A program made the position numbers and the translations under genes. A stretch of DNA of 64,000 nt from a virus, in IMG/VR virus record IMGVR_UViG_3300042387_001265, positions 16,234-80,233 of that record. One strand, 5' to 3'. Below, one piece after another: positions 11,071 to 63,570 of the stretch. The notes under the pieces were generated by a model. The model saw only the letters and a program-made list of their open reading frames with translations. It was not told the origin of the DNA and ran no database searches. The stretch's first letter is position 1. Every line of letters starts with the position of its first letter.

Positions 11071-14000
11071 GTGAAAATAGACCAACTTACATCCGCAAAC
11101 ACTTTTGAAGAGTGGTTGTCAACAACTTCCGGATTAATTGCTGTTGCTAATAATCTTACCAACAATACTTACGGTGGATTTTTAGCAAACTCTTCAATCT
11201 CAATTGAAGGTAATCAATCTTCAATTAATGTTCGAACACATGCGAACATTAATACACTGAGGGCAAACACGGGCAATATTGCTAATTCTTATTTTGGAAA
11301 AAGCAATGCATCGGTTGAATTAGATTTAACCGTTGGAAGAAAACTAACAGCCAATACTCTTTACGCTGATACGATTTTTGTTTTTAACAATTTAGATGAA
11401 GCAATAAGTGTATATGATCAGGCAAATGCACAATTTATACATGCAAACTCTACTTTCGTTCAATCAAATTCTGCATATAATCATACAAATTCATCCTTTA
11501 ATCATGCAAACGCAGAATTTGTAAAATCTAACTCCGCATTTGTTCGTTCCAATTCTGCATTCATACAATCTAATGCAGTTTATAATCACGCAAATAGCCA
11601 ATTTATACAATCCAATGCTGCATATAATCATGTAAATTCTTCATTTAATCATGCCAATTCTAGTTTTATTAAAGTTAATACGGCATTTGATTATACAAAT
11701 TCACAGTTTATACAATCGAATGCTGCATTTGCTTTGAGTAATGCTGCATTTGTTCAAGCAAATGTAACGTTTCCTCAAGCCAATTTATCATTTGCTGCTG
11801 CCAATTCTCAATTTGCATACGCAAATGTTGTATTAACACAATCGAATTCAGCATTCATTCGTGCTAATAATTCATTAGATGCAAACAATGGCGGATTGGT
11901 AACTGCTACACCTGCATTTTCAACTTATTCATTGGTCTATACTCGATTTTTTGGCCAGTCTTATGGCGGTGGTGTTCTTGCACCTAATGGTGATGTGCAT
12001 TTTGTACCTCTTCAAGCTGATATAGGACAAAAGATATCTGCTGCTGGTGTAGTATCAACATATTCGTTAGCTTATACAACATCTGCGGCTTCTGGTATTC
12101 ATAATGGTGGTGTTCTAGCAACTAATGGAGACATTCACTTTGTTCCCAATAGTTCAAGAGTTGGACAAAAAATATCTTCTGCTGGTGTTGTATCGACTTA
12201 CTCATTAGCATATACTACCACAAGTGCTTATGCAGGTGGTGTTCTAGCAACTAATGAAGAAATTTACTTTGTTCCTAATTTTGCAAGAGTTGGACAAAAA
12301 ATCTCTTCCGCTGGTGTAGTTTCAACTTATTCATTAGTATATACAACTTCTTCCGCTTATCAAGGTGGTGTTCTTGCACAAAATGGTGACATTCACTTTG
12401 TTCCTAATAGAGCAATAGTAGGACAAAAAATATCATCTAGCGGCGTTGTCACAACTTATTCTTTGGTATATACCACTGTTTTAGGCGCTTATGCAGGTGG
12501 TGTTCTTGCACCCAATGGTGATATTCATTTTATTCCTCTTAGTGCTAGAGTAGGACAAAAAGTATCATCTGCTGGTGTGGTATCTACTTATTCATTGCTG
12601 TATACGGTAACTAATGCTTATGTTGATGGTGTTCTTGCACCAAATGGAGATATACATTTTGTGCCTTTTAATGCTAACAGAGGACAAAAAATAACATCTG
12701 ACGGTATTGTTTTAACGTATGCATTACCATCTATCGCTGCCAGTGGATTTTTTGGCGGAGTTTTAAATACAAATAAAGAACTAATTCCAGTTCCATATTC
12801 CAGTAGTTTTGGATTAAAATTAGACTTATCAAAGACATATTCATATGATTTCGCTAATCTTACAATAAGATCGACTGAAGGTATAAAAACTGAAGTTGCT
12901 GCTGGACAAGATTCTATCATAATCAAAAATCCTATTGGTGGAACAGGAGCAAATACCGCAAATCTAACACCAAACACATTGACTGCAAATGTGACTGTAA
13001 CTATTCCAAATGAATCCTTTACAGTAGGTTTCAGAAATATACCAAAAGCAAATGCATTCGTTTACTCTGATATAGTTTCAACATATGCACTAGTATACAC
13101 TAGTACAACTCCAGCAGTTTATTCTGGTGGTGTTCTTGATCCAAATGGTGATGTTCATTTTGTTGCGTTTAATGCGCCAGTTGGACAAAAAGTATCTACA
13201 GCCGGTGTGGTATCAACATATTCGTTAGTATATACAACTGGTGGGTCATATTCTGGTGGTGTTCTTGCACAGAATGGTGATATACATTTTGTTCCTTTTC
13301 TTGCCAATAGAGGACAAAAAGTATCATCGGCTGGTGTAGTATCCACTTATTCGTTGGTATACACAACGAGTCGTGCATATGCTGGTGGCGTTCTTGCACC
13401 TAATGGTGATATTCATTTTGTTCCCCGTAGCGCAAACAGAGGACAAAAAATATCATCGGCTGGTGTAGTATCCACTTATTCGTTGGTATACACAACGAGT
13501 TTTGCATACTGGGGTGGTGTTCTTGCACCAAATGGCGACATCCATTTTATTCCTCAAGATGCAAATAGAGGGCAAAAAATATCCGCATCGGGTGTTGTGT
13601 CAACATATTCACTAGCATATACTACTTCGAGCGCATATTATGGTGGTGTTCTTGATTCAAATGGTGACATACATTTTGCTCCATATAACGCAAATAGAGG
13701 ACAAAAAGTTTCTGCTTCTGGTGTAGTATCCACTTATTCAATTTTATTTAACGTGCTGGAACAAAGTGCTTATAATGGTGGTGTTCTTGCACCGAATGGT
13801 GACATTCATTTTCTTCCTGGTGATGCTAATAGAATATTAAAAATATCATCTTCTGGAATAATATCCACTTATGCAGTTGCCACACCTCTTGATTATAGTG
13901 GTGGTGTTCTTGCACCAAATGGTGAAGTTCATCTTGCTCCAGACGATGGTTTTCGTGGTCAAAAAATAACATTATCAACCGAACACACGCTTGGTAGAGA

Positions 14001-14265
14001 TGATTTAGGTAAACAAGTTAAATCTTCAACATTTGCAACAATAAACATTCCAGCAGCAACATTTACTGATGGTGATGTGATCACGATTGTAAATAACGGT
14101 AGAGGAAACGTTAATATTAATTGTGGAGCTATAACAACGTCATATATTGCGGGAATAAATACAGATGTATCTCGTGTTAAAATTGGTCCAAGAGGTATCG
14201 TAACAATCATGTTTACAGACATTGACAGTTGTGTTTTATCTGGAACAATAATAGAATTAGAGTAA
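11071..14265 (+). CDS. tail fibre with AN-heptad stalk and two seven-bladed propellers
   Basis: The product has 1064 residues and a GTG start 1 nt after the previous stop. Residues 1-105 are an N-domain shared with the 14285 protein (QLTSANTFEEWL). Residues 110-270 are an AN-heptad stalk ending ANNSLDANNGG. Residues about 284-585 hold seven repeats of 43 residues (VSTYSLVYTT, then GGVLAPNGDIHFVP, then GQKISSAG). Residues about 590-665 are a linker found also in 14285 (VTVTIPNESFTVGFRNIP). Residues about 668-970 hold seven more repeats. The C-terminal 90 residues again match 14285. Seven repeats per block, each with one strand-rich NGDIHFVP core, fit seven-bladed beta-propellers. By position and build it is a receptor-binding fibre; the propeller fold and function are inferred. 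Confidence 0.8.
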   Translation: MKIDQLTSANTFEEWLSTTSGLIAVANNLTNNTYGGFLANSSISIEGNQSSINVRTHANINTLRANTGNIANSYFGKSNASVELDLTVGRKLTANTLYADTIFVFNNLDEAISVYDQANAQFIHANSTFVQSNSAYNHTNSSFNHANAEFVKSNSAFVRSNSAFIQSNAVYNHANSQFIQSNAAYNHVNSSFNHANSSFIKVNTAFDYTNSQFIQSNAAFALSNAAFVQANVTFPQANLSFAAANSQFAYANVVLTQSNSAFIRANNSLDANNGGLVTATPAFSTYSLVYTRFFGQSYGGGVLAPNGDVHFVPLQADIGQKISAAGVVSTYSLAYTTSAASGIHNGGVLATNGDIHFVPNSSRVGQKISSAGVVSTYSLAYTTTSAYAGGVLATNEEIYFVPNFARVGQKISSAGVVSTYSLVYTTSSAYQGGVLAQNGDIHFVPNRAIVGQKISSSGVVTTYSLVYTTVLGAYAGGVLAPNGDIHFIPLSARVGQKVSSAGVVSTYSLLYTVTNAYVDGVLAPNGDIHFVPFNANRGQKITSDGIVLTYALPSIAASGFFGGVLNTNKELIPVPYSSSFGLKLDLSKTYSYDFANLTIRSTEGIKTEVAAGQDSIIIKNPIGGTGANTANLTPNTLTANVTVTIPNESFTVGFRNIPKANAFVYSDIVSTYALVYTSTTPAVYSGGVLDPNGDVHFVAFNAPVGQKVSTAGVVSTYSLVYTTGGSYSGGVLAQNGDIHFVPFLANRGQKVSSAGVVSTYSLVYTTSRAYAGGVLAPNGDIHFVPRSANRGQKISSAGVVSTYSLVYTTSFAYWGGVLAPNGDIHFIPQDANRGQKISASGVVSTYSLAYTTSSAYYGGVLDSNGDIHFAPYNANRGQKVSASGVVSTYSILFNVLEQSAYNGGVLAPNGDIHFLPGDANRILKISSSGIISTYAVATPLDYSGGVLAPNGEVHLAPDDGFRGQKITLSTEHTLGRDDLGKQVKSSTFATINIPAATFTDGDVITIVNNGRGNVNINCGAITTSYIAGINTDVSRVKIGPRGIVTIMFTDIDSCVLSGTIIELE
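11920..12830 (+). repeat. propeller-coding repeat block 1 (7 units of about 129 bp)
   Basis: Seven units, each with a GGVL and an NGDIHFVP-type core. Unit seven is degenerate (GGVLNTNKELIPVP). Confidence 0.85.
13072..13985 (+). repeat. propeller-coding repeat block 2 (7 units of about 129 bp)
   Basis: Seven units. The phrase beginning TCCACTTATTCG recurs at 13342 and 13471, exactly 129 bp apart, and the flanking DNA is nearly identical. Confidence 0.85.
13504..13598 (+). repeat. 95-nt block nearly identical to 21043-21137
   Basis: Base-by-base reading gives one mismatch in 95 nt between this blade and the blade at 21043-21137 in a different gene 7.5 kb away, while surrounding blades differ at many silent sites. 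Confidence 0.85.
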
Positions 14266-14284
14266 TTATTTTTAGAAAACAAAA

Positions 14285-15610
14285 ATGGCAATAAATCAAC
14301 TATCAACTTCGAATACATTTACAGACTGGTTGCAAGCAACTTCTTCATTAATTGAAGTTGCCAACAGTCTTACAAGTAATGCTAGTGGCGGTCTTATTGC
14401 CAACTCTTCAATCTTCATTCAAGGTGAAGGTGCATCATTAAACGTTCGTACACTTGCGAATATTAATACTCTGCAAGCAAATACTGCAAACATTGGTAAT
14501 ACCAGATTTAGTGAGAGTAATGTAAATATTCAACTAGATTTAACTGTTGGAAGAAATTTATCGACAGTTAGTATTTACGCAAACGAGATTTATCAGAAGG
14601 GTGCAAATCTTCTACCGCTAATACAAAAGGTGCAACCCGCATATGATCACGCAAATGCTGGATTTATTCATGCAAACTCTGGTTTTATAAAAACCAATTC
14701 TGCATATGATTCTGTAAATGCAGCATTTATACATGCCAATTCTGGTTTTATTCAAACTAATGCTGCGTTTGACCATGCTAATTCTGGTTTCATTCAAGCC
14801 AACTCAGCGTTTGTACATGCTAATTTTGGATTCACGCAAACCAACACAGCTTACACTCAAACAAATGCTGCTTTTATTACAGCAAACAGTGGATTTATTC
14901 AAACCAATGCAGCATTTGACCACGCTAATTCAGGATTTATTCAAGCTAACACTTCTTTTGCACGTACTAATGCTGCATTCAATCATGCGAATTCAGGATT
15001 CATACAAGCAAACGCTGCATTTGATCATGCTAATTCTGGATTCATTCAAGCCAATGCAGCATTCAATAGTGCAAATGCTGCATTTATTCGTGCCAATAAC
15101 TCCTTAGATGCAAACAATGGTGGTATTGTTACTGGTAATGTTATCGTTAGATCATCTGTCGGTATAAAAGTAGAAAATGATATTTTACAAGATGCTATTA
15201 TTCTAAAAGGCAGAAATGGTGGAACTAGTTCATATTCTGCAACACTTGTACCAGACACACTTACAAGTAACGTTACTGTTACGATTCCGGGTGAAAATTT
15301 CACTGTTGGTTTTAGAAACATACCATCGGCTGGAGATAAAACATTTTATACTTTACAAGTTTCTGATGTTGGAAAATATATTAAAGTTGCTGGTACAATC
15401 ACGATACCAAACAACACATTTTCAGAAAATGATGTTGTAACACTTTATAATAATACAAGCACTAGCAAAACAATAACATGTGATATAGCTGTAGCTTACA
15501 TTGCAGCATTTGATACTGATGTTTCTAGTGTATCTCTTTCACCAAGAGGCATTGCAACAATTTTGTTTACAACTTCTAATAGTTGTGTGATTATGGGGAA
15601 TGCTATATAA
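14285..15610 (+). CDS. tail fibre, propeller-less paralogue of the 11071 fibre
   Basis: The product has 441 residues. The N-domain (1-100, QLSTSNTFTDWL to LDLTVGRNL) aligns throughout with the 11071 protein. An AN-heptad stalk (about 115-275) ends in the same ANNSLDANNGG phrase. It is followed directly by the shared linker (VTVTIPGENFTVGFRNIP, about 325-345) and the shared C-terminal domain. Both seven-repeat blocks of the 11071 protein are absent and the flanking sequence joins cleanly. This shows that the propellers behave as insertable cassettes. The last base of the stop codon is the first base of the next ATG. Likely a fibre that forms the same shaft without the receptor-binding propellers, or the ancestral form; the role is inferred. 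Confidence 0.75.
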   Translation: MAINQLSTSNTFTDWLQATSSLIEVANSLTSNASGGLIANSSIFIQGEGASLNVRTLANINTLQANTANIGNTRFSESNVNIQLDLTVGRNLSTVSIYANEIYQKGANLLPLIQKVQPAYDHANAGFIHANSGFIKTNSAYDSVNAAFIHANSGFIQTNAAFDHANSGFIQANSAFVHANFGFTQTNTAYTQTNAAFITANSGFIQTNAAFDHANSGFIQANTSFARTNAAFNHANSGFIQANAAFDHANSGFIQANAAFNSANAAFIRANNSLDANNGGIVTGNVIVRSSVGIKVENDILQDAIILKGRNGGTSSYSATLVPDTLTSNVTVTIPGENFTVGFRNIPSAGDKTFYTLQVSDVGKYIKVAGTITIPNNTFSENDVVTLYNNTSTSKTITCDIAVAYIAAFDTDVSSVSLSPRGIATILFTTSNSCVIMGNAI

Positions 15611-18081
15611 TGGCAGTTATTTTTAGAAATAGAGTTTATGGTATTACTGACCAATACGCCACTCAAAATACTTATTTTCAATTAACAGGTCCTGTTGGTC
15701 TTCCAACAGGACTAAGCTCTGGTCAAGCGTACTGGAGAATTGATGGTGCAGGAACAGGCTTTGGTCTTAGCAATGTTGCATCCGGAAATAGTATATATTA
15801 TTCTATGAGTACGGGAACTGATTGGGAAGTTGGAAAAGGTAGACTGTATATTTCTGATTTTAGAGTTTACACTCAAAGGGCTTCATATACAATCAGTGAT
15901 GCGTATTCGGATGGTGTTCTTGGAAATGATGGTTACATTCATTTTGTTCCATACAATGCGACTGTTGGACAAAAGATATCCGACGCTGGTGTAGTGTCAA
16001 CCTATTCATTAATTTACACCACTGCTGGTGCTTATGTTGGTGGTGTTCTTGGTGATGATGGTCATGTTTATTTTGTTCCCCACAATGCAAGAGTTGGACA
16101 AAAAGTAGATTTCAATGGTACTGTATCAACCTATTCATTAGTATATACAACGGCTGGAGCGTATGCCGGCGGCGTTCTGGATCCATTTCAACAAGATCAT
16201 ATTCATTTTGTTCCACACAATGCTAATAGGGGACAACGAGTTGGCCAAGGAACAGATTATGGTTTAGTTTCAACTTATTCATTACCCTATACAACAGCTG
16301 GTGCATATTGGGGTGGATTTCAAGGTCCATTTGCTGCAAACTTTGTTAATTATAATGCAAACCGAGGAATGAAAGTAGAGGCTAATACTGATCCCGAAAC
16401 AACAACATCAGCGCCTCCAGTAATTACAACATATACATTACCCTATACCGCTGCTGGTGCTTATCGAGGCGCTGTTTTAGATTATTTAGGTAATGCTCAT
16501 TATGTTCCATACAATGCGAATAGGGGTACTTATAATCAAGACGGAGTAGTTGAAAATATTGTAACGACATATTCACTTGCATATACAACAACGGGTGCAT
16601 ATTCTGGTGGTGTTTTAGACGACCTAGGTCGTCCACAAATTTTGCCTGATGGTTCTGAAGACAGTGGTCCCAGTATTCATTTTGTTCCACATAATGCAAG
16701 AGTCGGTCAGAAAATATTTCAACAATCAACTTTTGATTCAACCTTCAGTGGCATGGTAACAACATATGCTTTACCTTACACAACTACCGGAGCATATGAG
16801 GGTGGTGTAATTGAGGTGTTTTCAAAAAATATTTACTTTGTTCCACGTAATGCCAATCAAATACAAAAATTATCTTACAATACAATAACTAGAGACACAG
16901 TATATTCTTCATCAAATAATAATAATCCCGTTGATTTTGATTTTACTCCGAGCATATACGAAGGTCCTTACGTTGTTTATCCAAATGCTGTTGCCGTTGG
17001 TGGTGTTCCATCGGGGGATAACAATGAAATTGGACCGGATTTATCTGGTTGGAGAGCATTTCGTGGTTTGTTAGAACAAGGCGTTCTGGGCGGTAATGTA
17101 TTTAATAATCGTGGAGTTGGTGGAATTGTATCGACATATTCTTTGGGTTATACGCTTACTAATTCTTATCGTGGTGGTGTTCTTGCACCAAACGGAGACA
17201 TTCACTTTGTTCCTTATCTGGCTAATAGAGGACAAAAAATCTCTTCATCTGGTGTCGTATCAACATATTCATTAGTTTATACTTCCGACGCTTATCTGGG
17301 TGGTGTTCTTGCACCAAATGGTGATATACATTTTATTCCTCATAGTGCTAGAGTAGGACAAAAAATTAATATAAACGGTGTTGTATCCACATATTCATTA
17401 CTATATACAACGCTCACTTCTTATGGTGGTGGTGTTCTTGCACCAAATGGAGACGTACACTTTATTCCTTATAGTGCCGAAAGAGGACAAAAAGTCTCTG
17501 CTGCTGGCGTTGTGTCAACATATTCATTAGTTTATACCGGTCCTGCCGTTTATGGTGGTGGTGTTCTTGCGCCTAATGGCGATATACATTTTGTACCGTT
17601 ACAGGGTAACAGAGGACAAAAAATATCTGCTGCTGGCGTAGTGTCAACATATTCATTGATATATACGAATTCCGGTGGTTCTTATTGGAGTGGTGTTGTT
17701 GCACCAAATGGTGATATACATTTTATTCCTGCCAATGCTGTTGTAGGACAAAAAATATCTATTAATGGTACCGTTTCAACATATTCGTTAGTGTATACTG
17801 CAACTCTTGCTCATGCTGGTGGTGTTCTTGCGCCAAATGGTGATATTCATTTTGTTCCTTGGTGGGGAAATCGAGGACAAAAAATATCTGCTGCTGGTGT
17901 AGTGTCAACATATCCATTGATACATACAAATGCCACTGGTTCTCATTTTGGTGGTATTCTCAGACCTAATGGTGACATACATTTTGTACCTACAAATGCT
18001 GTTGGTCAAATGATTTCAACACTTCCTAGTACACCATTACCTATGAATGCATGTCTCAGTCCATTTTTAAACAAACTTTAA
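15610..18081 (+). CDS. tail fibre/adhesin with two seven-bladed propellers
   Basis: The product has 823 residues. I chose the ATG at 15610, which overlaps the previous stop by one base, over an upstream start at 15583. Residues 1-90 form an N-domain ending WEVGKGR, a pattern common at the attachment end of phage fibre proteins. Block one (about 92-430) has seven repeats that are the most diverged in the window, with inserts in blades 3, 4 and 6. A linker with SSNNNNPVDF and LSGWRAFRGLLEQ (about 438-505) follows. Block two (about 506-805) has seven canonical repeats. The C-terminus is ACLSPFLNKL, echoed in the next two proteins. Predicted fold: N-domain, propeller, linker, propeller, short tail. 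Function as receptor-binding protein is inferred. Confidence 0.78.
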   Translation: MAVIFRNRVYGITDQYATQNTYFQLTGPVGLPTGLSSGQAYWRIDGAGTGFGLSNVASGNSIYYSMSTGTDWEVGKGRLYISDFRVYTQRASYTISDAYSDGVLGNDGYIHFVPYNATVGQKISDAGVVSTYSLIYTTAGAYVGGVLGDDGHVYFVPHNARVGQKVDFNGTVSTYSLVYTTAGAYAGGVLDPFQQDHIHFVPHNANRGQRVGQGTDYGLVSTYSLPYTTAGAYWGGFQGPFAANFVNYNANRGMKVEANTDPETTTSAPPVITTYTLPYTAAGAYRGAVLDYLGNAHYVPYNANRGTYNQDGVVENIVTTYSLAYTTTGAYSGGVLDDLGRPQILPDGSEDSGPSIHFVPHNARVGQKIFQQSTFDSTFSGMVTTYALPYTTTGAYEGGVIEVFSKNIYFVPRNANQIQKLSYNTITRDTVYSSSNNNNPVDFDFTPSIYEGPYVVYPNAVAVGGVPSGDNNEIGPDLSGWRAFRGLLEQGVLGGNVFNNRGVGGIVSTYSLGYTLTNSYRGGVLAPNGDIHFVPYLANRGQKISSSGVVSTYSLVYTSDAYLGGVLAPNGDIHFIPHSARVGQKININGVVSTYSLLYTTLTSYGGGVLAPNGDVHFIPYSAERGQKVSAAGVVSTYSLVYTGPAVYGGGVLAPNGDIHFVPLQGNRGQKISAAGVVSTYSLIYTNSGGSYWSGVVAPNGDIHFIPANAVVGQKISINGTVSTYSLVYTATLAHAGGVLAPNGDIHFVPWWGNRGQKISAAGVVSTYPLIHTNATGSHFGGILRPNGDIHFVPTNAVGQMISTLPSTPLPMNACLSPFLNKL
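15880..16890 (+). repeat. diverged propeller block (7 units)
   Basis: Cores run DGVLGNDGYIHFVP, GGVLGDDGHVYFVP, GGVLDPFQQDHIHFVP, GGFQGPFAANFVNYN, RGAVLDYLGNAHYVP, GGVLDDLGRP with later SIHFVP, and GGVIEVFSKNIYFVP. The count is seven despite the divergence. Confidence 0.75.
17127..18030 (+). repeat. propeller-coding repeat block (7 units)
   Basis: Seven units with near-invariant APNGDIHFVP/IP cores; the last is GGILRPNGDIHFVP. Confidence 0.85.
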
Positions 18082-18090
18082 AGAAAAAAT

Positions 18091-20403
18091 ATGGCTTTTG
18101 TTGCTTTAGATAGAGCGAACGTAACATCGAATACGACTGGAACTGGTACCATATTATTTGGACCTACTGTTTCGGGATATACTGATTTTTCAGATGTTGG
18201 AAATAATAATCAAACTTATTATGCAATTACTGATGCATCAAATTTTGAGATAGGTGTTGGTACAGTAAAAACGCAGATTCCGTCAACATATTCTCTATTA
18301 TATACAAGTAATAATGCATATTACGGTGGTGTACTCGCACAAAATGGTGACATACATTTTGTTCCTTCATTTGCCGAAGTTGGACAAAAGATATCTGCTT
18401 CTGGTGTAGTTTCAACATACTCATTGATATACACACAAAATACTGATAATGGAGCACATATTGGTGGTGTTCTTGCAACAAATGGAGATATTCACTTTGT
18501 TCCTAGCGGCAGTCCGGTTGGACAAAAAGTGTCTTCGTTAGGCGTAGTATCAACATATTCGTTGATATACACTACAGCATTTGCTTATCATGGTGGTGTT
18601 TTAGATTTAAATGGAGATATTCATTTTATACCAAGAGATGCACCCGTTGGACAAAAAATATCCTCGGCTGGTGTCGTGTCAACATATTCATTGGTATATA
18701 CCAGATCGGATGCATACGCCGGTGGTGTTTTAGATTTAAATGGAGATATACATTTTGTTCCCAATGAATCTGAAATTGGTCAAAAAATTTCAACAACTTC
18801 GGGTGTCGTATCAACATATTCATTAGTATATACTACTTCTGATGCATATCAAAGTGGTGTTCTTGCATCCAATGGCGATGTTTATTTCATTCCGGAAAAT
18901 GCTTCGGTTGGACAGAAAATATCTAAAACTGGTGTTGTGTCAACTTATTCGTTAATATACACCAACACTTTGGCATATCACGCTGGCGGAGTTCTTGCTC
19001 CCAATGGAGATATACATTTTGTTCCATATCGTTCACCCGTTGGACAAAAAATTTCAACGACCACTGGCATTGTTTCAACATATTCACTAGCTTACACCAC
19101 ATCGACTTCTTATTTTGGTGGTGTTTTGGATGCAAATAATAACATACAATTCGTTCCATTTGATGCAACAGTTGGACAAAAAATAACAACACCTCGAATG
19201 GAAAGAGACTTTGTACTTGCATCAAGTAACAATGATAATAAAGTAAATTTCTCTGCTGGCACGAAAAGTGTTTATATTCCACAGCCATCAACACTAGTGC
19301 AAGGTTCCGCTGCTACGGCAGATGATTCTTCAATTGATTCGAGTTTAAATGCGTGGAAAGGACTTCAAAGAAGTTTGATGAAAAGCATTACAGCTGGAAC
19401 GACATTCAAGAATCCTATTCCATCAACATATTCATTGACATATACTTTTGAAAACGCATACAGTGGCGGTGTTCTTGCAGTTAATGGTGACATCCACTTT
19501 GTACCATATAATGTAAATATTGGACAAAAATTATCTCCAACTGGTATTAGTTCTACTTATTCTGTTATAGCTTATGGAGGTTATTGGGGCGGTGTTCTTG
19601 CGCCTAATGGCGATATACATTTCGTACCTAACGATGCAACTGTTGGACAAAAGATATCTGCTTCTGGTGTTGTGTCAACATATTCATTAGTGTATCAAAG
19701 AGGTGAGGCGTTTGTTGGTGGTGTTGTTGCACCAAATGGAGATATACATTTCGTGCCTTGGGCTTCAAGAATAGGCCAAAAAGTATCTACCACTGGTGTA
19801 GTTTCGACATACTCATTGGTAAATACTGGAACCCTTGCTTATTATGAAGGTGGTGTTCTTGCACCAAATGGTGAAGTACACTTTGTTCCTTTTCTTACTC
19901 CTGTTGGACAAAAAATATCAGCATCAGGTGTTGTGTCTACATATTCATTAGCATATACTACTACTGAAGCCTACGCTGGTGGAGTCATTGCACCCAATGG
20001 AGACATACATTTTGTTCCTTATGATGCAAGAGTTGGACAAAAAGTCTCTATTGATGGTGTGGTTTCGACATATTCATTAGCATACACTCGTAACAATGCA
20101 TACGCTGGAGGTGTTCTTGCACCAAATGGTGAAATTCATTTTGTTCCATTTTGGGCAGCTCGTGATGATTTGGGTGTGGGAATTGGTCAAAAAATATCTT
20201 TAAATGGCGTTGCATCTACATATCCAGTTACACCAATTTCTATGGGCGCAAATCAAGGACCATATTCTTTTGGTGTTTTAGATTTTGATGGTAATATTCA
20301 TTTTATTCCAGTAGGACAAAACGGCGTATCACAAAAAATATACACATTATCTAAACCCCTAGATAGTGAAATAGCACTCGGTTCATTCTTAAATAAGTTA
20401 TAA
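18091..20403 (+). CDS. tail fibre/adhesin with two seven-bladed propellers
   Basis: The product has 770 residues. The N-domain (1-60, VALDRANVTSNTTGTGTILFGPTVSGYTDF to FEIGVGT) is a clear example of the attachment-type domain also seen in the 20407 protein. Block one (about 62-368) has seven repeats. The linker (about 370-445) contains ASSNNDNKVNF and LNAWKGLQRSLMK, homologous to that of the 15610 protein. Block two (about 446-750) has seven repeats, the last being FGVLDFDGNIHFIP. The C-terminus is LGSFLNKL. The gene follows 9 nt after its paralogue and probably arose by duplication. Likely a receptor-binding virion protein; the fold is inferred from repeat number. Confidence 0.78.
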   Translation: MAFVALDRANVTSNTTGTGTILFGPTVSGYTDFSDVGNNNQTYYAITDASNFEIGVGTVKTQIPSTYSLLYTSNNAYYGGVLAQNGDIHFVPSFAEVGQKISASGVVSTYSLIYTQNTDNGAHIGGVLATNGDIHFVPSGSPVGQKVSSLGVVSTYSLIYTTAFAYHGGVLDLNGDIHFIPRDAPVGQKISSAGVVSTYSLVYTRSDAYAGGVLDLNGDIHFVPNESEIGQKISTTSGVVSTYSLVYTTSDAYQSGVLASNGDVYFIPENASVGQKISKTGVVSTYSLIYTNTLAYHAGGVLAPNGDIHFVPYRSPVGQKISTTTGIVSTYSLAYTTSTSYFGGVLDANNNIQFVPFDATVGQKITTPRMERDFVLASSNNDNKVNFSAGTKSVYIPQPSTLVQGSAATADDSSIDSSLNAWKGLQRSLMKSITAGTTFKNPIPSTYSLTYTFENAYSGGVLAVNGDIHFVPYNVNIGQKLSPTGISSTYSVIAYGGYWGGVLAPNGDIHFVPNDATVGQKISASGVVSTYSLVYQRGEAFVGGVVAPNGDIHFVPWASRIGQKVSTTGVVSTYSLVNTGTLAYYEGGVLAPNGEVHFVPFLTPVGQKISASGVVSTYSLAYTTTEAYAGGVIAPNGDIHFVPYDARVGQKVSIDGVVSTYSLAYTRNNAYAGGVLAPNGEIHFVPFWAARDDLGVGIGQKISLNGVASTYPVTPISMGANQGPYSFGVLDFDGNIHFIPVGQNGVSQKIYTLSKPLDSEIALGSFLNKL
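18280..19195 (+). repeat. propeller-coding repeat block (7 units)
   Basis: Seven units, from GGVLAQNGDIHFVP to GGVLDANNNIQFVP. Confidence 0.85.
19425..20345 (+). repeat. propeller-coding repeat block (7 units)
   Basis: Seven units, from GGVLAVNGDIHFVP to FGVLDFDGNIHFIP. Confidence 0.85.
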
Positions 20404-20406
20404 CAT

Positions 20407-21828
20407 ATGTCATTTATTGTCAGAGATTTGGTTCAAATGGGAACCGCTACAACAGGTAACAATGATTTATTATTGTTTCCTACCTCTACATCCAAGTATA
20501 GAACTTTAAATGCTTCTGATGCTAATAACAAAGTTCATTATTTCGTTACTAGTGGATCGCGTTGGGAAGTTGGAATAGGTACCATTCAAGTAAGTTCACC
20601 AGACATTTATTCAAACGTGCAGTTTACCATAACCAGAGATGAAATTTCGGATTCTCAAGATAATGGTAGAAAAATTAATTTTCCAGCTGGCGTTAAAAAT
20701 GTTACAATAACTTTTCCTGCAGAACTTGTTCCGGGAACCATACCTACTTCAGATGATGCATCAACCACGAATAATTTAATTTCATGGCGTGGTCTAGAGA
20801 GGGAATTGAGACAGGGTGTTATAAGAGGTACGCCATTTGATAATGGTGGCGTTGGCGGTATAGTATCAACTTATTCGTTAATTTATACAACTTCTCAAGC
20901 TTATCGTGGTGGTGTTCTTGCACCTAATGGTGATATTCACTTTGTTCCAGGTTTCGCAAATAGGGGTCAAAAAGTATCTGCATCTGGTGTTGTATCGACT
21001 TATTCGTTAGTTTATACTACTGCTGGTGTTGATGGTCAAGGTGCATACTGGGGTGGTGTTCTTGCACCAAATGGCGACATCCATTTTATTCCTCATGATG
21101 CAAATAGAGGGCAAAAAATATCCGCATCGGGTGTTGTATCAACGTATTCTTTAGTTTATTCACTCACATCTGGTTATCTGGGTGGTGTTCTTGCACCAAA
21201 TGGTGATGTTCATTTTGTGCCTTTTAATGCTGAGAGAGGTCAAAAAATATCTGCTGCTGGCGTTGTATCAACATATTCATTAGTATACACTAGAACCGTT
21301 GCTTATGCAGGTGGCGTTCTTGCACCCAATGGTGACATACATTTTGTTCCTTCATTTGCTGAGAGAGGTCAAAAAATATCCTCTGCTGGTGTTGTTTCAA
21401 CTTATTCATTAGTTTATACAACGGCAAATGCTGCATTTTTTGGAGGCGTTCTTGCACAGAATGGTGATATTCATTTTGTTCCTTATCGTGCCAACAGAGG
21501 GCAAAAAATATCCTCTGCTGGTGTCGTATCAACATATTCTTTAGTTTATACTACTGGTGCGGCTTATTCTGGCGGTGTTCTTGCACCTAATGGTGATATT
21601 CATTTTATTCGTTTTAGTGCAATCGTAGGACAAAAAGTGTCTGCTGATGGCGTTGTAACAACTTATTCTCTAATTACTACTGGAACTCAGCTACATTATG
21701 GAGGCGTTCTTGCACAGAATGGTGATATTCATTTTGCTCCTTTTTCTGGAAACATAGGACAGAAGATTTCAACGGGCATAAATATATCGCCAGGTCGAGT
21801 TTTATCGCCATTTTTTAACAAATATTAA
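20407..21828 (+). CDS. tail fibre/adhesin with one seven-bladed propeller
   Basis: The product has 473 residues. The N-domain (1-60, FIVRDLVQMGTATTGNNDLLLFP to WEVGIGT) matches the two upstream paralogues. It is followed immediately by the linker domain (about 70-148, with TSDDASTTNNLISWRGLEREL), without the first propeller that they place between N-domain and linker. One block of seven repeats (about 150-458) follows. The C-terminus is LSPFFNKY. So this is the one-propeller version of the same design. Blade two (21043-21137) is nearly identical in DNA to a blade in the 11071 gene. A likely receptor-binding virion protein. Confidence 0.78.
   Translation: MSFIVRDLVQMGTATTGNNDLLLFPTSTSKYRTLNASDANNKVHYFVTSGSRWEVGIGTIQVSSPDIYSNVQFTITRDEISDSQDNGRKINFPAGVKNVTITFPAELVPGTIPTSDDASTTNNLISWRGLERELRQGVIRGTPFDNGGVGGIVSTYSLIYTTSQAYRGGVLAPNGDIHFVPGFANRGQKVSASGVVSTYSLVYTTAGVDGQGAYWGGVLAPNGDIHFIPHDANRGQKISASGVVSTYSLVYSLTSGYLGGVLAPNGDVHFVPFNAERGQKISAAGVVSTYSLVYTRTVAYAGGVLAPNGDIHFVPSFAERGQKISSAGVVSTYSLVYTTANAAFFGGVLAQNGDIHFVPYRANRGQKISSAGVVSTYSLVYTTGAAYSGGVLAPNGDIHFIRFSAIVGQKVSADGVVTTYSLITTGTQLHYGGVLAQNGDIHFAPFSGNIGQKISTGINISPGRVLSPFFNKY
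20860..21780 (+). repeat. propeller-coding repeat block (7 units)
   Basis: Seven canonical units; unit six has IHFIRF and unit seven IHFAPF instead of the usual VP. Confidence 0.85.
21043..21137 (+). repeat. 95-nt block nearly identical to 13504-13598
   Basis: Partner of the block at 13504-13598, with one mismatch in 95 nt. Confidence 0.85.
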
Positions 21829-59520: not shown

Positions 59521-61875
59521 ATGAACAACATTCAAAATCAAAAGTCTGGTCTTGCCAAACTGATGGCAACCGAGAATCTCACTGTTCAACATGCCAAAAC
59601 TTATACGGCATCATTTGATCCTAAAAATCGTATTCTAACATGTCCTATCTGGACAGAAATGTCTGGCGATCTTTATGACTTGCTAATGGGTCATGAAGTT
59701 GGTCACGCTATCGATACACCTGCCGATGGTTGGCATGGTGCTGTTCATGACCGCGGTCGTAGTTACAAGGGCTTTCTCAATGTGGTTGAAGATGCACGAA
59801 TTGAGAAGCGCCAAAAACGCCGTTATCCTGGTCTACGTAAATCTTTTATCAACGGCTTCAGTGAACTAATGAACCGTGACTTCTTTGGTCTAAAGGGTCG
59901 TGATATCAATTCAATGTCATTCATTGACCGACTGAACTTATACACAAAGTCCAGTTATACAATGGACATTCAGTTCAATGACATTGAAAAAGATTTTGTT
60001 GAACGTGTTCAGGCTTGTGAATCTTTTGAAGAAGCCTTGAAATTGACGGATGAAATTTGGGACTATTCAAAAGAAGAACAACAACAAACCGAAATGCCTC
60101 AAGATGATTTTGGCTATGAGTTTGATGAAGATGGTGAAGAATCTGAAGTCGGTTCTGGTGACGGTGATGCCGAGACTGATGGCAAAGGTAAACAAAAAGC
60201 AAAAACAAAAGCGAACGGTCAAGATGGTGACCAAGATTCTGATGATTCATCTGACGGTGATGGTGAAGAATCCGATGAAGATGGTGAAGGTACAAAATCC
60301 GCAAAGTCTGACGGTGAATCTGAAGATGATGAATCTTTCGAAGAATCTGAACAGGGTAATGCTATCAATCGTTATAAAGAATCGAAAAGCCTTTCAGAGG
60401 GCTTAGATGACTTTGAACCTCGGTGTGAAACTGATGAAAACTTTCGTGCAAATGAATCTAGTCTTATTGCAAAAAATTCACGTGAATATGTTTATGTAAA
60501 CATTCCTGCGCCGAATCTGAAAAACATTGTCACGCCAGCAAAACGTGTTCAGGAACTTTTGACTGAAGATTTTTCCAAACAACGGCAAGATTATCAGCAA
60601 GTTGCCAATAATTTGTATGCAGATTTTCGTAAGAAAAATGAACGGTATATCTCTCTTCTGGCAAAAGAATTTGAGATGCGTAAGGCTGCACAACGGTTTG
60701 CAAAAGCAAAAACTGCGTCCACTGGTGATATTGATATCAGCCGTGTATTCAAATATCAGATTGATGATAATATCTTCAAAAAAATCATGCGTGTTCCTAA
60801 GGGTAAGTCGCACGGTTTGGTTCTGTTACTTGATAAGTCTGGTTCAATGTCCGAAAATCTTACGGCATCATTAGAACAAATTCTGATTCTGGCATTGTTC
60901 TGCCGTAAAGTAAGCATTCCGTTCAGTGCATATGGTTTTGGTAATGCAGAGAATGTCCGACACATGGATTTTCCTTCGGACCCATCGTTTGATGAGTACG
61001 GTAATGTAATTCTGAAAAGCTACAGCACTGGTTGCTTTTCTGAAAAAGAAGGTGACTTGCAACTTTCTAGTGTGTACCTGCGTGAGATGATTAATTCGAA
61101 AATGAGTAATTCTGAATTTTCGAATGCCGTGAAAAACATTCTGTGCGTTATGGATGCGTTTCAATACAGATATTCGTATGGTAAATTCTTTCAGCGTCCT
61201 AAGAGTGAAAGTTTATCAAACACACCATTGACTGAGGCTTTGATTGCTTCTCAGCCAGTCATCAAAGAATTTCGCAAATTGAACAATCTTGATATTGTCA
61301 ATCTGTGTGTGGTTCACGATGGCGATGCTGATACAACAACTAGCTATCATAATAATGGCACAAGAAATTATTATCGTGTGGGTTATCAGAATGTTTTTCT
61401 GTGCGACAAAAAAGAAAAACTGCAATTTGAATTGTCTGATGATGAGAACGGTGCCAGAATTGCGGTATCAAAGTGGTTGACTAAAACCACTGGTGCTAAA
61501 ATAATTGGTTTCTATCTTGCACCAGATTCACAAGTTAGAAATGTTATTCGCCGTCGGTTTGTGAATGATGAAGTTCTTGCTGCCGATGATAGTAACAAAA
61601 AATATACTTGGGAATGGAAGTGTGCTACTAATGAAGTTTATAGCAAGTATGCAAAAATCTTCCGTAAAAATAAGTATCTTGAATCCAAAAATGATGGCTA
61701 CGAATCATTTTTCATCATTGCTGGTGGTAATGATTTGAATGTTGGTGATGACACGTTTGATGCACCCGATAAAGTTACCGCAACTAGTCTGTCAAAAGCA
61801 TTTGGTAAGTTTACCAAAAATCGTCAAGTGAATCGGGTTCTGGTTTCACGATTCATTGGTATGATTGCTGCTTGA
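59521..61875 (+). CDS. cobT: CobT-like protein: HExxH domain plus VWA domain
   Basis: The product has 784 residues. Residues 1-180 form a metallopeptidase-like domain with HEVGH at 58-62 and NVVEDARIEKR at 87-97, where a Glu could be the third ligand. A very acidic linker (about 195-285) follows. From about 430 a VWA domain has an intact metal site DKSGSMS (438-444). In T4-like phages of aquatic hosts this protein, paired with CobS, is called CobT or porphyrin biosynthesis protein. With the AAA+ gene downstream it could form a MoxR/CobS-VWA chaperone-type complex. True cobalt chelation lacks support, since no CobN subunit is seen. Confidence 0.8.
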   Translation: MNNIQNQKSGLAKLMATENLTVQHAKTYTASFDPKNRILTCPIWTEMSGDLYDLLMGHEVGHAIDTPADGWHGAVHDRGRSYKGFLNVVEDARIEKRQKRRYPGLRKSFINGFSELMNRDFFGLKGRDINSMSFIDRLNLYTKSSYTMDIQFNDIEKDFVERVQACESFEEALKLTDEIWDYSKEEQQQTEMPQDDFGYEFDEDGEESEVGSGDGDAETDGKGKQKAKTKANGQDGDQDSDDSSDGDGEESDEDGEGTKSAKSDGESEDDESFEESEQGNAINRYKESKSLSEGLDDFEPRCETDENFRANESSLIAKNSREYVYVNIPAPNLKNIVTPAKRVQELLTEDFSKQRQDYQQVANNLYADFRKKNERYISLLAKEFEMRKAAQRFAKAKTASTGDIDISRVFKYQIDDNIFKKIMRVPKGKSHGLVLLLDKSGSMSENLTASLEQILILALFCRKVSIPFSAYGFGNAENVRHMDFPSDPSFDEYGNVILKSYSTGCFSEKEGDLQLSSVYLREMINSKMSNSEFSNAVKNILCVMDAFQYRYSYGKFFQRPKSESLSNTPLTEALIASQPVIKEFRKLNNLDIVNLCVVHDGDADTTTSYHNNGTRNYYRVGYQNVFLCDKKEKLQFELSDDENGARIAVSKWLTKTTGAKIIGFYLAPDSQVRNVIRRRFVNDEVLAADDSNKKYTWEWKCATNEVYSKYAKIFRKNKYLESKNDGYESFFIIAGGNDLNVGDDTFDAPDKVTATSLSKAFGKFTKNRQVNRVLVSRFIGMIAA

Positions 61876-61900
61876 CAAAGTGTGGAACTTTCTTTATAAT
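61872..61900 (+). promoter_or_regulatory. sigma70-type promoter before the CobS-like gene
   Basis: TTGACA (61872-61877), a 17-nt spacer and TATAAT (61895-61900) make a perfect consensus. The -35 again contains the stop codon of the upstream gene. Confidence 0.93.
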
Positions 61901-61931: not shown

Positions 61932-63125
61932 ATGGCAAGTCGTTCTGCTAAACGCCAGGTTTTTATTGATGCACTTATTGCAACTGGCAAATCTGAAGTT
62001 ACAAAAGTTGATGTTGTTGCAATTGCTGAAAAGCTAAGTATTCCCGTTCCTCAGTGGTTCGTGAATGATGAATCTAACAAAGTAAAGCGTGGTGTTTATC
62101 GTGTTCCCGCTGCATCCAACGCGGCACCGGCTGCGTCCGTGGCTATCAATATGGCTGCACAAGTGATTCCGCTTGCAAAGCCTGAGCCAGTCGCTGGTAA
62201 TCGTATTGCAAATGTGACAACTGACCTAGAAGTTACTGATTTGATACCAACGCAGTATTCAAACTATGTACCTTTTGGCAACTTTGCTGATGTGTTGTCA
62301 ATTGTACAATCAAATATGTTCTTCCCTGTTTTCGTTACGGGTCATTCTGGTAACGGTAAAACAATGTCAATTGAGCAAGCTTGTGCCAAAGCAAAACGTA
62401 AATTCGTTTGTGTATCAATGACACCAGAAACCGATGAAGGCGATCTTCTTGGTAACTATGTTCTGATCAACGGTCAGATGGAATGGCGTGATGGTCCTGT
62501 TACCGTTGCAGCCCGCCAGGGTGCTGTATTGTGTATTGATGAGATTGATTACGGCGCACAAAATCTGTCCTGCCTTCAGCGTGTCCTTGAGGGTAAGCCG
62601 TTTCTTTTGAAAAAGAAAAACGAAATTGTTGCTCCTGCTCCTGGCTTTACTGTGTTTGCTACTGCTAACACAAAGGGTAAGGGTTCTGAAGATGGTCGCT
62701 ATATGTTTACCAACGTATTGAACGAGGCGTTTCTTGAGCGTTTTCCTAATACGATGGAACAAGAATGGCCTCCTGCGAAAGTTGAACAGAAAATCATTGA
62801 AAAAGAATTGAAGTCGGTTAATCGTGAAGATGATGACTTCGCCAAAAAGCTTGTGACTTGGGCTACAGTGATTCGTAATACTTTCACTGAAGGTGGTTGT
62901 GATGAGGTTATCTCGACCCGCCGTTTGGTACATATCGTTAAAACATACGGTATCTACGGTGATAAAATCAAAGCAATTAAGTATTGCTTGAATCGTTTTG
63001 ATGTTGATACTTCGGTTACTTTCCTTGACTTGTATACCAAAGTTGATGGTGGTGCTGATGTTGATTCTATCAAAACTGCCGAAACACCTACAGCAGAAAC
63101 AAATACGGAAGAAATTCCTTTCTAA
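61932..63125 (+). CDS. cobS: CobS-like AAA+ ATPase
   Basis: The product has 397 residues. Walker A is GHSGNGKT (137-144), Walker B VLCIDEID (199-206). MTPETDEGDLLGNYVLING (163-181) and FTVFATANTKGKGSEDGRYM are typical of CobS/MoxR ATPases. The N-terminal 65 residues look like a small helical domain, joined by an Ala/Pro-rich linker. It should work with the VWA protein encoded upstream. Common in cyanophage-type T4 relatives. Its own perfect promoter and GAGGAG site suggest strong early expression. A terminator follows at once. Confidence 0.9.
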   Translation: MASRSAKRQVFIDALIATGKSEVTKVDVVAIAEKLSIPVPQWFVNDESNKVKRGVYRVPAASNAAPAASVAINMAAQVIPLAKPEPVAGNRIANVTTDLEVTDLIPTQYSNYVPFGNFADVLSIVQSNMFFPVFVTGHSGNGKTMSIEQACAKAKRKFVCVSMTPETDEGDLLGNYVLINGQMEWRDGPVTVAARQGAVLCIDEIDYGAQNLSCLQRVLEGKPFLLKKKNEIVAPAPGFTVFATANTKGKGSEDGRYMFTNVLNEAFLERFPNTMEQEWPPAKVEQKIIEKELKSVNREDDDFAKKLVTWATVIRNTFTEGGCDEVISTRRLVHIVKTYGIYGDKIKAIKYCLNRFDVDTSVTFLDLYTKVDGGADVDSIKTAETPTAETNTEEIPF

Positions 63126-63140
63126 GCTAACATTTACCAA

Positions 63141-63170
63141 GGGGAGTGTTGACACACTCCCCTTTTTTTT
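63141..63170 (+). terminator. intrinsic terminator after cobS, overlapping a promoter
   Basis: GGGGAGTGT (63141-63149) pairs with ACACTCCCC (63154-63162) around TGAC, followed by eight T (63163-63170). The T-run is at the same time the spacer of the next promoter. Confidence 0.95.
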
Positions 63171-63177
63171 ATATACT
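63149..63177 (+). promoter_or_regulatory. sigma70-type promoter embedded in the cobS terminator
   Basis: TTGACA (63149-63154) spans the loop of the terminator hairpin. After a 17-nt spacer comes TATACT (63172-63177). Start near 63184. Confidence 0.85.
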
Positions 63178-63185
63178 GACAATAT

Positions 63186-63236
63186 GTAGAGAACAGTCGC
63201 CTCTACTATTTCTTTTTTTGTGCGACTATTTTTTAA
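63186..63236 (+). promoter_or_regulatory. leader with two mutually exclusive hairpins
   Basis: GTAGAG (63186-63191) can pair with CTCTAC (63201-63206). Alternatively AGTCGC (63195-63200), which lies in that loop, can pair with GCGACT (63222-63227), followed by ATTTTTTAA. Both stems are six perfect base pairs and cannot form together without a pseudoknot. The layout resembles an attenuator before the gene at 63250; this is inferred. Confidence 0.5.
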
Positions 63237-63249
63237 TGGAGTAAATTGA

Positions 63250-63513
63250 ATGTCTGCTAAACAGAAAATTCTAAACTATCTTTCTAAAGATTCTGGCTAC
63301 AACACACTCACTGCGGCACAAATTCGTGCCCGTTTTGGTATCACTAATGTTGGTGCCCGCATTGAAGAACTTCGTTCTGAAGGTCACTGCATTTATACCA
63401 ACAAGAAAACCCTCGATAACGGTAAGACAATCACTTACTATCGTCTTGGCAAACCTAGCCGCGAAATGGTTGCAGCAGCACATGCAGTTTTTGGCGCAGA
63501 AGTTTTTGCCTAA
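63250..63513 (+). CDS. small winged-helix DNA-binding protein
   Basis: The product has 87 residues. SAKQKILNYLSKDSGYNTLTAAQIRARFGI with VGARIEELRSEGHCIYTNKKTL and the beta wing GKTITYYRLG fit a winged helix-turn-helix. The form is common in T4-like phages of aquatic hosts. It has its own sigma70-type promoter and a structured leader, so it may be an early regulator. A hairpin terminator follows. DNA binding is inferred from fold pattern. Confidence 0.8.
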   Translation: MSAKQKILNYLSKDSGYNTLTAAQIRARFGITNVGARIEELRSEGHCIYTNKKTLDNGKTITYYRLGKPSREMVAAAHAVFGAEVFA

Positions 63514-63528: not shown

Positions 63529-63570
63529 AGAGTAGGAGCATATATATAATATGTGTTTCTACTCTTTTTT
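63529..63570 (+). terminator. probable intrinsic terminator after the winged-helix gene
   Basis: AGAGTAG (63529-63535) pairs with CTACTCT (63559-63565) and six T end at 63570. The 23-nt loop can form an inner CATAT/ATATG stem. A TATAAT (63545-63550) lies in the loop, but no acceptable -35 is placed before it. Confidence 0.7.

Follow-up and report, generated by a model that had tools for sequence, protein, structure and literature searches.

A predicted terminator fused to a sigma70-type promoter upstream of a winged-helix gene in a virus related to T4-like cyanophages

Can one short piece of DNA end the transcription of one operon and begin that of the next? The question is raised by the junction between a cobS-like gene and the gene of an 87-residue winged-helix protein, p87, in the window, by which we mean the whole stretch of 64,000 nucleotides that was analysed. 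The window makes up most of an 80,233-base virus record, whose major capsid protein is closest to those of T4-like cyanophages (64.7% to P-TIM40). The initial annotation had placed a terminator and a promoter within the same 37 bases of this junction, 63141-63177. The features concerned are the following.

61932-63125, + strand: cobS-like AAA+ ATPase, the upstream gene (open reading frame; Pfam AAA_5, 4.4e-19; PHROG 249, 5.3e-100)
63139-63177, + strand: the fused element, which reads AAGGGGAGTGT-TGAC-ACACTCCCCTT-TTTTTT-A-TATACT
63139-63164, + strand: predicted terminator hairpin of 11 pairs with loop TGAC (mechanical scan, fold, covariation)
63149-63154, + strand: -35 hexamer TTGACA, which spans the hairpin loop and its closing pair (mechanical scan)
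63163-63170, + strand: T8 run of the predicted terminator, within the promoter spacer (sequence; kept in relatives)
63172-63177, + strand: -10 hexamer TATACT, 17 nt after the -35 hexamer (promoter match; spacing conserved)
63184, + strand: expected transcription start, approximate, about 7 nt after the -10 hexamer
63238-63241, + strand: GGAG, likely ribosome-binding site of p87 (from the sequence)
63250-63513, + strand: p87, 87-residue winged-helix protein, the downstream gene (open reading frame; Pfam HTH_39, 6.2e-08; PHROG 4973, 2.1e-17)

A mechanical scan recovered both signals exactly where they had been annotated. The promoter, TTGACA-17-TATACT at 63149-63177, matches the sigma70 consensus (TTGACA, about 17 nt, TATAAT) at 11 of 12 positions. 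Its -35 hexamer does lie across the hairpin loop, spanning the closing T-A pair and TGAC, and the T-run, described as the spacer, is wholly inside the 17 nt that precede TATACT. The first two T of the T8 run are at the same time the last two T of the hairpin 3′ arm, and the stable G+C-rich stem followed by a T-run is what characterises an intrinsic terminator. Folding of the RNA from 63126 to 63172 gave -18.5 kcal/mol (z = -5.55), a value that none of 200 shuffles equalled. When both signals were scanned for in combination, one fused element was found in the 64-kb window and none in the 16.3 kb of the record outside it; first-order Markov resampling of the window, done 150 times, produced a single one in total.

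Promoter-like matches taken alone are not enriched in the 4-kb stretch around the element (9 found, 10.7 expected from shuffles), and the loop TGAC recurs in many elements. These two observations would fit a terminator standing alone, with TTGACA and TATACT as chance matches in its A+T-rich loop and tail. The case for the fused element is carried by the combination of signals and by its conservation, not by promoter matches alone.

The fused element was sought in relatives, as the initial annotation had suggested, and was found there. Loci were gathered from IMG/VR by CobS (best 80 loci) and by p87 (best 80 loci), neither set being a random sample; since the two sets overlap, counts are given on distinct sequences. 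Among the loci listed, the p87 upstream regions of 130 loci reduced to 44 distinct elements. Where the p87 homologue was more than 70% identical, 24 of the 29 distinct elements listed were fused, with a spacer of 17 nt in 22 and of 18 nt in two. The five others comprise one in which the element is deleted (L042) and four, near the 70% limit, that have the promoter without the hairpin (L137, L138, L139 and L141). The deleted locus, L042/L091 (one contig), has cobS directly 5′ of the p87 ribosome-binding site, and the loss is either a real deletion or an assembly artefact at the palindrome.

Over 26 distinct aligned elements (L042 left out), stem pairing was kept in 95.5% of 286 cells. Six of the 11 pairs change on both sides, G-U pairs are tolerated, and the covariation score of the stem was reached by none of 500 shuffles; sliding the partner by 1-3 columns lowered every covariation measure. 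TTGAC was invariant in 26/26 aligned elements, and the T-run is kept in the p87 relatives listed. In a flank-swap test on the close p87 set, 87% of 516 swaps could still pair, which indicates that divergence at the p87 locus alone is modest. With covarying stems, invariant hexamers and T-run, and a near-fixed 17-nt spacer, the claim that terminator and promoter share the same bases is strongly supported by sequence comparison.

The name given to the element, the cobS terminator, fared less well. Some relatives (L010, L011, L017, L023, L032, L045, L048, L055, L057 and others) carry an insert of about 1.5 kb that separates cobS from the region upstream of p87 and has a promoter of its own directly at the stop of cobS. 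In relatives with such an insert the fused element remains next to p87, so that it is better called the terminator-promoter of p87.

Farther away the picture changes. Among the loci listed, p87 homologues of 70% identity or less keep the promoter hexamers, and the form with a U-tract was found in 0 of their 15 distinct elements. Three of these relatives (L054, L062, L135) keep a long hairpin over the -35 hexamer, and three (L057, L058, L081) have a palindrome within the spacer and no U-tract. Phage DLP6 has a p87 homologue, and no fused element was seen in the 120 bases 5′ of its gene. The distant homologues devoid of the U-tract form, together with the four closer ones devoid of a hairpin, suggest that the terminator is dispensable over longer times.

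Since the palindrome sits on the promoter of a gene for a DNA-binding protein, and since the three spacer palindromes just mentioned have no U-tract, the hairpin might be a protein operator, for instance for winged-helix p87 itself, rather than a terminator. We rejected this reading, which strikes us as very improbable: the stem varies freely in its letters yet retains its pairing and the T-run, G-U pairs are tolerated, and the same design is found 5′ of unrelated genes (see below).

Near-consensus promoters with a palindromic spacer, GCAA- or TTCG-like loops and no T-run were also seen in L056, L057, L081 and L017, either before p87-like genes or immediately behind cobS. Hairpins (p <= 0.01) were present in 8 of 58 non-redundant strong promoters of the family's loci, fused ones included. 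A hairpin within the promoter thus holds for some, not most, promoters in this phage family.

Recurrence of the fused design before other genes was examined by a pattern scan of IMG/VR and GTDB genomes (TTGACA, a T6 run inside the spacer, TATAAT). A hairpin was counted when its 3′ arm abutted the T-run, with a score of at least 12 and p <= 0.01 against shuffled upstream flanks, both thresholds being our choice. Among the matches listed, such a hairpin was found in 37 of 121 viral elements versus 4 of 117 bacterial or archaeal ones, and many of the viral matches precede cyanophage-type genes: hli (high-light-inducible proteins), thymidylate synthase and a small acidic protein. Gene names were recognised by eye, then backed by annotated matches.

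Because the pattern scan selects the element itself, the test was repeated by protein. For the small acidic cyanophage protein, which is unrelated to p87, the best 80 loci (3 with too little sequence) gave 60 distinct upstream regions. Among these listed loci, 58 of the 60 were fused, with a 17-nt spacer in 58/58 and 31 distinct stems; the remaining two have the same design with TTTACA. For hli, where the best 80 loci (one too short) gave 68 distinct upstream regions, a promoter was found in 67 and a fused terminator in 22 of the loci listed, the spacer being 17 nt in 22/22. The promoter can thus stand without the terminator. In the small-protein family, finally, all 53 distinct elements had a stem of their own that scored 11 or more, a score reached by 52% of 2620 swapped flanks. 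Taken with the element counts, this swap test indicates that hexamers and T-run are nearly fixed and that the stem letters are free, with complementarity kept.

These data also bear on the possibility, raised above, of a terminator with chance hexamers. We rejected it and find it scarcely credible, since the 17-nt spacing is near-fixed, the promoter is retained by hli relatives that have no hairpin, and the hexamers are kept by distant p87 relatives. We regard the anatomy, spacing, covariation and recurrence of the fused element as established from these comparisons, and the element looks like a real compact control element.

Named phage isolates were searched as well. The exact pattern was present in 4 of the 16 records, with 6 occurrences that all lie in the forward (gene) direction, and the reversed control pattern gave 0 matches in the same 16 records. 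A terminator-first scan, in which the terminator had to be fused to a promoter matching at least 10/12, counted one fused element in P-SSM2, one in S-PM2, two each in S-SM2, S-SRM01, P-TIM68 and S-SCSM1 (one of the latter doubtful), three in P-SSM4 and four in KVP40; at this promoter threshold none was found in T4, RB49, Syn9 or HTVC008M. A separate fused scan, which covered no KVP40, likewise found none in Syn9, T4 and HTVC008M. Its shuffled means (first-order Markov resampling) were 0 to 0.4 per genome. The thresholds of the two scans differ, and their counts are similar, not identical (P-SSM2, 0 in the fused scan versus 1 in the terminator-first scan). The S-PM2 copy (AJ630128, 124309) lies 5′ of hli03, as does one S-SM2 copy, another S-SM2 copy precedes an epimerase gene, and the P-SSM2 copy follows regA. 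In S-SM2 (GU071095), elements are located at 167151 and 143550. A weak match of the fused scan in RB49 (promoter 9/12) was read as an ordinary terminator and set aside. Elsewhere in RB49 (AY343333, around 3192, minus strand), a promoter has its -10 hexamer, TATAAT, in the loop of a terminator-like hairpin.

Three overlaps of another kind were noticed. At the end of cobT (61875) in the window, the stop codon TGA lies within the -35 hexamer of a promoter at 61872-61900 (TTGACA/TTGACT type). The same overlap of stop codon and -35 hexamer is found in S-PM2 (AJ630128, 124309-124314), where the gene before hli03 ends at 124312, and in P-SSM2 (AY939844, 142801-142806), where regA ends at 142804.

How does the element compare with known systems? 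Composite promoter-terminator motifs of T4-type phages, the promoter-early stem-loops or PeSLs, have reportedly been described by Arbiol (2010) and Comeau (2014). The window element resembles them in combining a sigma70-like promoter with a predicted stem-loop terminator between two genes of a T4-like phage. It may also share with them a position where genes are exchanged: among its relatives about 1.5 kb is present or absent beside the element, but gene order is mostly stable. It differs in number, PeSLs occurring as many alike copies whereas a single copy was found in the 80,233 bases of this record, which may be incomplete. Geometry differs also. RB49 has nine tandem pairs, in which the -35 hexamer starts 16-30 nt after the start of the T-run; in KVP40 the seven fused copies are almost identical and carry TTGAC in the 5′ arm, their order being AAAAGGGTTGAC, short loop, GTCAGCCCTTT or GTCAACCCTTT, and -10 hexamer. 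In the window element, by contrast, TTGACA falls at the loop, the T-run serves as spacer and the stems covary, and the element is single-copy and vertically conserved. It would thus work like a PeSL, with a geometry of its own and without the multi-copy feature.

In the literature, PeSLs of T4-type phages are treated in passages of PMC4503421 and PMC3950731, and appear as reference entries in PMC5348500 and PMC5931544. Passages of PMC4503421 report for S-PM2 potential stem loops along with an early promoter resembling that of the host, with a PeSL density lower than in other T4-like phages; these passages describe no fused PeSL for S-PM2. More broadly, searches of the open-licence PMC library, judged on titles, abstract openings and cited passages, brought up no paper that names a fused element with the -35 hexamer in a hairpin in cyanophages.

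The reading that we prefer, and hold to be probably correct from the sequence evidence, is that of a compact operon-boundary element, combining in one DNA a terminator and a sigma70-type promoter for p87. A sigma70 promoter needs two hexamers and a 17-nt spacing and tolerates most flank and spacer sequence. The free positions could therefore be shaped into a terminator: the 5′ arm would lie upstream of the -35 hexamer, TTGACA would provide the loop with its closing pair, and the spacer would be taken up by the 3′ arm together with the T-run. RNA polymerase coming from the cobT/cobS side would make the hairpin and U-tract and terminate at about 63165-63171, and the same DNA would act as a strong sigma70-type promoter, starting the p87 mRNA near 63184. 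We infer that RNA both ends and starts at the element. Polymerase stopped in the T-run would cover the -10 hexamer and the start site, so that termination and initiation should exclude each other sterically at any instant. From this geometry, the passage of polymerase and the use of the promoter may influence one another, as had been proposed initially.

Such exclusion could be taken further, the element acting mainly as a switch between operons, in which incoming polymerase is halted at a promoter that is already occupied, and termination in turn masks the promoter. By their coordinates both events would need the same DNA stretch. The block is, however, a prediction from footprints, and the near-consensus downstream promoters argue for strong use rather than a delicate balance; we consider a mutual block of this kind quite unlikely.

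Another possibility adds coupling to the compact boundary element. The terminated polymerase would stay on the DNA, with sigma still or again bound, and re-initiate at the promoter beneath it, so that upstream transcription would feed downstream transcription. The distance from terminator to promoter is here as short as possible, and passages of PMC6978380, PMC6978322 and PMC11347151 report retention of bacterial polymerase once intrinsic termination has occurred, and re-initiation nearby that depends on the distance from terminator to promoter; a terminator lying close to a promoter is the setting in which re-initiation is proposed. The terminators and promoters in these passages are separate, and a fused element is not described in them. 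Retention and re-initiation are documented there mostly in vitro; re-initiation by a terminated polymerase in vivo is called not yet demonstrated in passages of PMC6978380 (2020) and PMC11347151 (2024), while PMC6978322 reports antisense signals in vivo consistent with it. Against recycling at the window element, re-initiation in PMC6978322 was mostly antisense on its template, and genome compaction alone could give the overlap; RB49, moreover, uses tandem pairs. On balance we judge recycling here to be improbable, if less so than a mutual block. We would be equally sceptical of the broader idea that the element is a natural polymerase relay, coupling consecutive operons without read-through, and that selection acting on the two functions at once maintains it in the window's lineage and in T4-like cyanophages.

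For the compact boundary element itself, the consequence is that those positions of a near-consensus promoter at which the sequence is free can hold a complete (predicted) intrinsic terminator, and that this recurs with stems that differ. Such elements may be overlooked when a stretch of DNA is annotated as either a terminator or a promoter. The S-PM2 and S-SM2 loci before hli03 are natural, laboratory-accessible sites at which to ask whether polymerase re-initiates in vivo once it has terminated.

The leader of the p87 mRNA holds a second candidate RNA structure, close behind the expected start site.

63186-63227, + strand: candidate H-type pseudoknot of the p87 mRNA leader (covariation)

Its stems would pair 63186-63191 with 63201-63206 and 63195-63200 with 63222-63227. 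In 30 distinct leaders, which together offer 358 cells, 96.4% of the cells were paired and 29 had changed on both sides, a number as high in 0 of 500 shuffles; the number of pair types was not raised (450 of 500 shuffles as high). Scores of single leaders were often matched by shuffles, so the case rests on covariation. The candidate is the only strict match in the window. Leaders of similar design, built with other stems, are found before related genes in L056 and further loci. A search of Rfam gave 3 matches up to E = 5, none near the gathering score, and no family that fits the pseudoknot. A leader pseudoknot is known in the T4 gene 32 mRNA. In both, the pseudoknot, a candidate one for p87, belongs to an early phage mRNA and lies in its leader; the proteins differ, p87 being of the winged-helix type rather than a single-stranded-DNA-binding protein. 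The candidate pseudoknot may control p87 translation or protect the 5′ end of the mRNA.

Two further observations were made in the window. A second terminator-like hairpin, of 17 pairs in the scan and with TATAAT inside, lies 3′ of p87 at 63529-63565. Far from this junction, several large open reading frames in 11071-21828 carry many copies of a motif like STYSLVYTT...GGVLAPNGDIHFVP, as seen by eye, and are perhaps repeated fibre proteins.
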